A DNA stretch of 64,000 nt from positions 62,001 through 126,000 of the forward strand of contig NZ_AQXQ01000010.1 in NCBI RefSeq assembly GCF_000376865.1, in the 5' to 3' direction. Position numbers and translations under genes: made by a program. The notes beneath the pieces were generated by a model that was not told where the DNA came from, searched no databases, and saw only the letters and a list, made by a program, of their open reading frames with translations. The stretch comes from Thioalkalivibrio sp. ALJ7 (lineage in GTDB: Bacteria > Pseudomonadota > Gammaproteobacteria > Ectothiorhodospirales > Ectothiorhodospiraceae). Positions 35,109 to 36,374 of this stretch are shown here, piece after piece (within the stretch, counting starts at the first letter, position 1; each line of letters starts with the position of its first letter).

Positions 35109-35180
35109 GGAGCCTGCTTGCAGGCGAATGCCCCCGCCAAAGCCGGACGCGGGCAGGGGCTTCGCCTGCGAGCAGGCTCC
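35109..35180. repeat. REP-like inverted pair between sdhB and sdhE
   Basis: GGAGCCTGCTTGCAGGCGAA (35109-35128) and its 19/20 inverse (35161-35180) are flanked by GTA/CCCACAGG, as in pseudomonad-type REP sequences. Each half is itself a small hairpin (GCCTGC-TT-GCAGGC). The pair is in the middle of the sdh operon and could stabilise or attenuate the mRNA. Confidence 0.8.
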
Positions 35181-35209: not shown

Positions 35210-35464
35210 ATGGAACCCGATAGCCGGACGCGCTGGCGTTGCCGCCGCGGCATGCTGGAGAACGACTGGCTGCTCGGGCAGTTTCTCGCGCAGGGATATG
35301 CGCAACTGGACCAGGAGGGTCGCGATGCCTTCGAGCGCCTGCTCGACTACCCCGACAACGTGTTACTGGATGTGGTCATGGGGCGCCAGACCACGGTGGA
35401 CGACGGGATAGCCCGGCTTGTCCCGGCGATCCGCGCCGCCGCTCAGGCTGCGGCTCCGACCTGA
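35210..35464 (+). CDS. sdhE: FAD assembly factor SdhE
   Basis: SdhE (84 residues) promotes covalent FAD attachment to SdhA. The family motif RGxxE is present in CRRGMLENDWLLGQFL, followed by the usual helical tail (AFERLLDYPDNVLLDVVMG). I start at the ATG at 35210; a GTG three codons upstream is possible. A ygfX-like frame overlaps its end, matching the sdhE-ygfX order of E. coli. Confidence 0.92.
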   Translation: MEPDSRTRWRCRRGMLENDWLLGQFLAQGYAQLDQEGRDAFERLLDYPDNVLLDVVMGRQTTVDDGIARLVPAIRAAAQAAAPT

Positions 35465-36374
35465 TCCGCTTCTCCCCCGGCTCGCGCTTGCGGGCCAGAT
35501 CCTGCTGCTGTTGGCGGTTGTGGCCTACGTGCTGGTCTACAGCCCGCTGTGGACGCTGGCCCCGGTATTCGGCCTGGCCATAGTCGGATGGTGGTGGCAA
35601 TGGCGTTCGCGCCCGCCGGCCTGGGACTGGCTGGGCCAAACGCCGGATGGTGCGACCTGGCTGGCGACGGCTGAGGGCCTACGCCAAGAGCAGGTGGACT
35701 GGGTTGAGGTGTTGCCCGACACGCGGGTGCTGTGGCGCGTCGTGGTCCTGATCGTGCGCGAGCGCAGTACCGGGCGCGTGTCGCGCCTGTGGCTGCATGC
35801 CGCGCGCATGGATGCAGATGACCTGCGCCGGCTGCGAGTGCGGCTGCGCTGGTCGCCCGGCCGCGAGGTGGCGGATCCCGGCTGGTGGGTGCGGCTTCGC
35901 GCGGGGGTTGCGCAGGGCGTTGCTATACTGGCGCAAAGCCGAGTACCCGGAGGCCCGAGCATGGCTGGACCCTATAACGCGCAGGTGATGGTGGATGTCT
36001 CGCATCTGCTGAGCGACGAGCCCGATCACGTCTACAGCGAGGACGAACTGGATGCGATCGAAGAGCTCGATCCGGAGCTTGCGCTGCGTCTGGACCGGGC
36101 GCAGACCCATGCGCAGCGCGAGGCGGCGGACGTGCCCGCCGATGGCCCGATTGACGAGGACGCCGTGCGCGCGGCCATCGAGGAGGCACGCCGGATTCTG
36201 ATGCAGGACGGCGGCGATATCGAGTTCGTGGAACTTGATGGCCGGACCGTCCGGGTCCGGCTCAAGGGTGCCTGTGTCGGTTGTCCGCGTTCCACCCTCG
36301 ATCTCAAGAATGTGGTAGAGCGCCTAGTGCGTTCGCGGGCCCCCGGCGTGGCCAGCGTCGCCAATACCTTCTGA
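35418..36374 (+). CDS. YgfX-like frame continuing in frame into a NifU-like domain
   Basis: A single stop-free frame of 318 codons. The first ~180 codons resemble YgfX/CptA (PF07254), the membrane partner encoded after sdhE: two adjacent helices (LALAGQILLLLAVVAYVLVY, then LAPVFGLAIVGWWW), then LWLHAARMDADDLRRLRVRL near the domain end. The remainder is NifU-like. No stop separates them, but an internal ATG at 35961 has GGAGG seven bases upstream and an extended -10 before it. The two are therefore more likely nested genes than a fusion, and YgfX may carry the NifU domain only as an extension. The start is uncertain (TTG at 35418; no ATG near the expected N-terminus). Confidence 0.6.
   Translation: MSRRSAPPLRLRLRPDPLLPRLALAGQILLLLAVVAYVLVYSPLWTLAPVFGLAIVGWWWQWRSRPPAWDWLGQTPDGATWLATAEGLRQEQVDWVEVLPDTRVLWRVVVLIVRERSTGRVSRLWLHAARMDADDLRRLRVRLRWSPGREVADPGWWVRLRAGVAQGVAILAQSRVPGGPSMAGPYNAQVMVDVSHLLSDEPDHVYSEDELDAIEELDPELALRLDRAQTHAQREAADVPADGPIDEDAVRAAIEEARRILMQDGGDIEFVELDGRTVRVRLKGACVGCPRSTLDLKNVVERLVRSRAPGVASVANTF
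35921..35929 (+). promoter_or_regulatory. Candidate extended -10 promoter for the NifU-like gene
   Basis: TGCTATACT matches an extended -10 (TGN-TATAAT, one mismatch in the hexamer). It lies 31 bases before the ATG at 35961. No good -35 is seen, as is usual for extended -10 promoters. Confidence 0.4.
35961..36374 (+). CDS. NifU C-terminal-domain protein
   Basis: This 137-residue protein has an acidic N-terminal half (VDVSHLLSDEPDHVYSEDELDAIEELD) with no clear family, and a C-terminal NifU-type domain. The domain has EEARRILMQDGGDIEFVELDGRTVRVRLKGACVGCPRSTLDLKN, whose CVGC pair binds or transfers an Fe-S cluster. The NfuA/NifU family delivers clusters to apoproteins. Location beside sdhB, sdhE and ygfZ points to Fe-S enzyme maturation (inference). 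The ATG has a strong ribosome site; the frame is also continuous with the YgfX-like reading frame upstream. Confidence 0.85.
   Translation: MAGPYNAQVMVDVSHLLSDEPDHVYSEDELDAIEELDPELALRLDRAQTHAQREAADVPADGPIDEDAVRAAIEEARRILMQDGGDIEFVELDGRTVRVRLKGACVGCPRSTLDLKNVVERLVRSRAPGVASVANTF

Follow-up and report, generated by a model that had tools for sequence, protein, structure and literature searches.

On the forward strand of the window, the 64,000-nucleotide stretch of DNA analyzed here from the sulfur-oxidizing bacterium Thioalkalivibrio, sdhB is followed by sdhE (35210..35464; Pfam Sdh5, E 7e-22), encoding the 84-residue flavinylation factor of succinate dehydrogenase (SDH), and then by a single open frame that runs from a TTG at 35418 to a TGA ending at 36374. 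These 318 codons join a YgfX-like part to a NifU domain with no stop between the two, as the initial annotation of this DNA had claimed, and the frame is continuous at all 28 loci found in the genus. The last 47 nt of sdhE overlap the ygfX frame as counted from its TTG, an arrangement shared by each of the 27 congeners (of 28) in which it could be scored; as that TTG is also part of the sdhE coding frame, its conservation does not count as independent evidence. With residues numbered on the 318-residue frame, the YgfX-like part comprises residues 1-146 (35418..35855), with two predicted membrane helices followed by a beta-rich part. It is succeeded by 35 codons (residues 147-181; 35856..35960) which hold the ygfX tail together with the nifU promoter region, and to which we refer as the joint. 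The remainder is a nested nifU (35961..36374), whose 137-residue protein is the predicted main product, and within which the NifU domain proper occupies 36165..36359 and includes a CxxC motif (C286 and C289). An extended -10 of a predicted internal promoter, TGCTATACT, lies at 35921..35929, and a Shine-Dalgarno GGAGG at 35949..35953 precedes the nifU ATG at 35961 by 7 nt. Between sdhB and sdhE lies a REP-like palindrome (35109-35180), composed of two inverted copies of GGAGCCTGCTNGCAGGCGA, which has 42 matches in the genome at no more than one mismatch, against none for a reversed control pattern. In the 15 congeners (of 28) where it could be scored, the spacing between the sdhB stop and a fixed motif in sdhE ranges from 32 to 169 nt, and this element may therefore be gained and lost among congeners.

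The NifU end of the frame matches PF01106 over residues 250-314 (E 8e-21; 74.4 bits, against a Pfam cut-off of 27), and is the sole match to this family in the genome. Both cysteines of the CxxC, which is the cluster-binding motif of the NifU domain, are invariant among the 13 sequences of alignment A2. Nfu proteins hand clusters to client proteins. The whole-protein models lie far from either form of the protein: NfuA (TIGR03341) returns 18.9 bits for the long form and 21.6 for the short, against a cut-off of 269.35, and NifU proper (TIGR02000) returns 43.8 and 46.2 bits, respectively, against 273.3. The YgfX end is a weak member of its family (PF07254, Cpta_toxin), which it matches at E 8e-5 and 23.3 bits, under the cut-off of 27.3, when that part is searched alone. 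It does occupy the place of ygfX directly 3' of sdhE, by way of the 47-nt overlap, and two homologous fusions from another genus of the same family (g3; loci L044 and L045) pass both Pfam cut-offs in one frame, with 38.9 and 29.1 bits for PF07254. An AlphaFold2 model of the fusion, built with 13 close sequences, is of low confidence overall (mean pLDDT 56, pTM 0.34). It places helices at residues 18-41 and 44-63, with block means of 83-89 pLDDT over residues 21-60 in that model of pTM 0.34, and falls below 50 from residue 148 to 206. The three best hydropathy windows all fall in the first helix, starting near residue 22.

The initial annotation had proposed a search for the same frame in relatives, and this search was productive. 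The locus was found in 28 of 30 Thioalkalivibrio genomes, that of the window included, and all 28 loci are uninterrupted, at 316-323 codons and down to 57% identity. The two genomes without it, G006 (80% complete) and G019 (66% complete), yielded no sdhE match either. Beyond the genus, the fused frame occurs in three of the five genomes of g3 (G031, G034 and G036). The other two (G066 and G067) keep ygfX, and a PF01106 search found no NifU domain in either. The ygfX frame of G067 (L134; that of G066 is L135) closes with QERLEALPGE, which resembles the beginning of nifU, as though that gene had been lost by deletion. A search of contigs gave a concordant picture, as 12 of 13 named loci were from Thioalkalivibrio and carried the entire frame, and the thirteenth, from a Candidatus Aegiribacteria MAG, matched the NifU domain alone. 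The fused in-frame state is thus seen in two genera only, and as the congeners are related to one another, counts of conservation among them are not counts of independent events. The suggestion that the missing stop is an error of sequencing or assembly can practically be dismissed, given that 28/28 congener assemblies agree, those of G010 and G012, as single contigs, among them.

The internal signals are as described in the initial annotation, are conserved, and point to a nested gene. The extended -10 TGNTATACT is present in 26 of 28 congeners, and in each of these the first T of TATACT stands 37 nt before the ATG; it is missing from L029 (TGCTACACT) and from L041, the locus of G012. A Shine-Dalgarno sequence (GGAGG in 15 of 28, GGAG in 12) and the ATG occur at 27 of the 28 loci, G012 again being the one without. 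In all three fused g3 loci the 37-nt spacing of TATACT is identical. The -10 forces an ATA isoleucine codon, which is found at that site in 26 of 28 loci against 2 of the 212 other isoleucine codons of the same frames. Synonymous diversity is also depressed around these signals; in clade A, pS is 0.12 in the joint compared with 0.40-0.45 in ygfX and 0.39-0.44 in NifU, and in clades B, C and D it is likewise below that of both neighbors. In the pair G010-G012, the latter of which had lost the signals, pS of the joint is 0.35 and not clearly lower. The joint measures 102 nt in 20 loci and 105 nt in eight, a difference that a single one-codon indel explains. Together these conserved nested-gene signals look selected as DNA. 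A promoter scan that required a -35 element as well found none between 35000 and 36600. In three g5 genomes of the family (G058, G061 and G065), TATACT was absent 5' of nifU in the stretches examined, and the promoter is therefore not kept throughout the family.

How far the open joint itself speaks for a selected fusion depends on how readily such frames stay open. Of the two control frames across the joint, frame +2 has a stop in one of 28 loci and frame +1 in nine, and a neutral simulation found the observed frame and control frame +2 equally improbable (0.007 each). On the opposite strand, an antisense frame of at least 300 codons (and of up to 376) was read in 10 of 16 congener loci, a sign that with so high a G+C content an open frame carries little weight. 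Openness by itself is not beyond chance. We had entertained it as proof of a selected fusion, and set it aside on the grounds that frame +2 is nearly as open and that stop-making changes in the joint are near expectation. The same figures invite a more austere account, in which the 137-residue NifU is the only product made in meaningful amounts, ygfX being barely translated or the fusion degraded, and in which the open joint is an accident of G+C-rich sequence. The near-openness of frame +2, the long antisense frames, the strength of the internal signals, and a joint pN/pS indistinguishable from 1 are all in keeping with this account. It nonetheless conflicts with the protein selection on YgfX (pN/pS 0.25-0.51) and the avoidance of stops there, which indicate translation, and with the lack of any sequence barrier before nifU; we judge it decidedly improbable.

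Selection was compared along the frame in clades A (eight genomes), B (five) and D (11), leaving out clades C and E, which contain two genomes each. In YgfX, pN/pS is 0.26, 0.25 and 0.51 in A, B and D, respectively; in NifU it is 0.05, 0.03 and 0.10; and in the joint it is 0.74, 0.59 and 1.11, with all three intervals including 1. Thus no protein selection on the 35-codon joint was demonstrated in these three clades, and the point estimates in A and B may reflect weak constraint on the protein. Uncorrected dN/dS across all 28 loci gives a similar profile, at 0.74 for residues 14-58, 0.41 for the remainder of YgfX, 1.03 for the joint, and 0.15 and 0.07 for NifU. Parsimony changes at first, second and third codon positions number 408, 335 and 759 in ygfX, 103, 125 and 131 in the joint, and 76, 71 and 679 in NifU. 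In the ygfX frame, fewer stop-creating changes were reconstructed than expected (3.9 vs. 15.5), the two control frames of ygfX being near expectation, and this argues that ygfX is translated. The NifU frame shows 0.5 such changes vs. 7.1 expected, and the joint approximately 2.6 vs. 3.6, which is no clear deficit. This test is a weak one, as the reconstruction produces false internal stops (the 3.9 in the ygfX frame compare with none in living sequences), and as control frame +1 of NifU is likewise short of expectation (8.6 vs. 23.7). Judged by these substitution patterns, both ends of the frame are translated and selected, and the joint evolves like an unconstrained linker or like promoter DNA.

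One congener, G012, bears directly on the roles of the two forms, as it has lost the -10, the Shine-Dalgarno sequence and the ATG, and retains the continuous frame, the CxxC and a single PF01106 match. It is the genome in which the nifU signals trapped within ygfX were lost. We considered G012 as proof that the fusion suffices; that argument is weakened by a NifU branch which looks relaxed. NifU pN/pS is 0.59 (0.27-1.49) on the G012 branch vs. 0.11 (0.02-0.29) on that of its sister, in a contrast of one lineage with overlapping intervals, and the assignable amino acid changes in NifU number 15 (the lost Met included) vs. 5. For YgfX the order is reversed, at 0.24 on the G012 branch and 0.50 on the sister's. 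Since NifU appears relaxed in G012 and YgfX does not, function probably resides in the short form, and the simplest reading is that the short NifU form was lost together with relaxation of selection on NifU, leaving a fusion that would be without the selected function. A later in-frame ATG of G012, within REMPAVEH, could also start a shorter form.

In other lineages the same two genes adjoin one another as separate frames. The initial annotation had named a stop between the two domains in close relatives as evidence against a fusion; such a separation exists in 14 genomes of other lineages (three of f127, five of f151, and six of g5), in which ygfX and this small nifU are adjacent but each has an open frame of its own, and in none of the 28 congeners. 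In the three f127 genomes, which are outgroups, a TAA closes ygfX 5' of a TATAAT, which the nifU ATG follows, and in one of these (G380) the genes share a register with the TAA between them. In the five f151 genomes the two frames overlap in differing registers, and in the three whose sequence was read, an ATG in the nifU frame lies just 5' of the ygfX TGA. The g5 genomes are more varied. In G033 the ygfX TAA falls shortly 5' of the nifU ATG and TATACT is present; in G058, G061 and G065 the ygfX frame, in a different register, reaches a TGA that begins 8 nt past the A of the nifU start codon; and in G063 and G064 a TGA lies 26 nt 5' of an ATG, G064 having a second ATG at 17 nt. In four more g5 genomes (G059, G060, G062 and G035; loci L131, L136, L137 and L138), ygfX has its own end and this NifU type went unmatched, and a PF01106 search of G059, G060 and G035 also found none. 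Two adjoining genes can thus be seen here standing apart, overlapping in different registers, or fused, in which last case the promoter of the second gene has become enclosed in the first.

A sample of 369 genomes of the class yielded close matches to this NifU type, at E 1e-25 or better, in 20 genomes, 17 of them outside the family; six of these 17 have ygfX upstream within 1.5 kb, all in the two-frame state. Two further two-frame genomes of f151 came from a separate search. In G201 (L087), a 537-codon open frame that begins at 280 has a close relative of this NifU at its end, and YgfX was not found in it. The neighborhood is shared more widely than the fusion, as sdhB and sdhE lie just upstream of the ygfX-nifU pair on the same strand in 8/8 genomes of f127 and f151, and adjoin it on the opposite strand in the six g5 genomes; the pair therefore neighbors SDH assembly genes in several lineages. 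A tree of rpoB (27 genomes; a twenty-eighth that was searched, G018, gave a partial match and was left out) did not resolve how the two fused genera and g5 branch relative to one another, and the fusion may accordingly have arisen once or twice. In this tree G032, which has neither sdhE nor this NifU, groups with the genus of the window at 94/96.

Taken together, these data favor, with a probability we would put at around two in three, a locus in which a nested nifU gives rise to a 137-residue carrier, and in which translation of the stop-less ygfX also gives rise to a 318-residue fusion. We propose that ygfX and the gene for a small Nfu-type carrier came into one frame, and that nifU would have an extended -10 promoter of its own inside the ygfX tail, as well as its own ribosome site and ATG for translation, to yield a soluble carrier of 137 residues as the main and functional product. 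Translation of ygfX would begin at the TTG inside sdhE, and every full pass would run on to the nifU stop, to produce a 318-residue YgfX-NifU with a flexible joint; if YgfX makes two membrane passes, the NifU of this fusion would sit on the cytoplasmic side. Since YgfX is under protein selection and lacks a stop, its translation must yield the fusion, and an active internal promoter and ribosome site, which their conservation suggests, would add the short form. The initial annotation had posed a nested gene and a fusion as alternatives; the nested signals are indeed conserved, and the two are not exclusive, as ygfX translation would give the fusion as well. The activity of the internal promoter, the two products, their ratio and the topology are what we infer. 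Function most likely lies with the short NifU, and the fusion would be made alongside it unavoidably and might have some role of its own; were it unstable, however, it might fail to accumulate.

A stronger proposition is that the fusion is itself the selected product, with YgfX, as a partner of SdhE, tethering NifU to the membrane and so coupling the loading of FAD and Fe-S onto SdhA-SdhB. The genomic context is agreeable to it: the order sdhB, sdhE, ygfX, nifU lies on one strand in the three f127 and five f151 genomes too, every one of the 31 genomes of the two genera that yielded the gene retains the fused frame, G012 still has the frame after losing the internal signals, and the point estimates of joint pN/pS fall below 1 in clades A (0.74) and B (0.59). 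An interaction of YgfX with SdhE in Serratia is also reported, by the title of a study cited in PMC8621075. Against this, the joint lacks demonstrated protein selection (1.11 in clade D) and does not clearly avoid stops, NifU looks relaxed where the short-form signals are gone, two of five g3 genomes kept ygfX without a NifU domain, and an interaction between YgfY and YgfX was not found in Shewanella, according to PMC8621075. We consider a selected fusion unlikely; that the fusion, which the initial annotation had called sensible, is the functional product is supported neither by the joint nor by G012. A variant that we would hold with similar reserve is that the only NifU-domain carrier of the cell exists in two forms, one free and one tethered by YgfX beside SdhE, that FAD and Fe-S assembly of SDH would thereby be coupled, and that two promoters would set the ratio of the forms.

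The interest of the locus lies partly in the dispute over YgfX, for which a role as a toxin or as a partner of SdhE has been argued, as PMC8621075 relates. In that paper the toxicity of Shewanella YgfX was not reproduced and binding to YgfY was not found, and the CptAB type IV toxin-antitoxin scheme, in which YgfY would relieve the toxicity of YgfX, is disputed. A natural YgfX-NifU frame within a cluster of sdhB, sdhE, ygfX and nifU suggests a tie to the supply of Fe-S to succinate dehydrogenase. Among the open-licence papers listed by our searches we found no YgfX-NifU fusion, nor any paper that pairs YgfX with NifU; in PMC12727194, YgfX is absent and the NifU-like mention is a table row.

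Both halves of the frame have recognizable counterparts. The ygfX of the window resembles YgfX/CptA (PF07254), the partner gene of sdhE (ygfY), in beginning just inside the 3' end of sdhE and, in a low-confidence prediction, in having membrane helices near its start; it differs in that it has no stop of its own and runs into NifU, and in scoring under the Pfam cut-off that its relatives exceed. With the Nfu-type carriers NfuA, NifU and Nfu1 the frame shares a C-terminal NifU domain (PF01106) with its CxxC. NfuA and NifU carry an A-type or IscU-like domain. The protein encoded here, by comparison with NfuA and NifU, scores below the whole-protein models, and has a short N-terminal stretch (HVYSEDELDAIEE...), with YgfX upstream in frame. 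The arrangement is real and extends across the genus: a stop-less ygfX frame encloses a nested nifU that has signals of its own. A precedent is Cas11b, which, according to PMC11899642, is made from an internal in-frame start inside cas8b such that one gene gives two proteins. There, as would be the case here, translation from an in-frame ATG within the longer gene gives the shorter product; unlike cas8b, the ygfX-nifU frame is composed of unrelated genes that are separate in other lineages, and the inner gene has a predicted promoter of its own.
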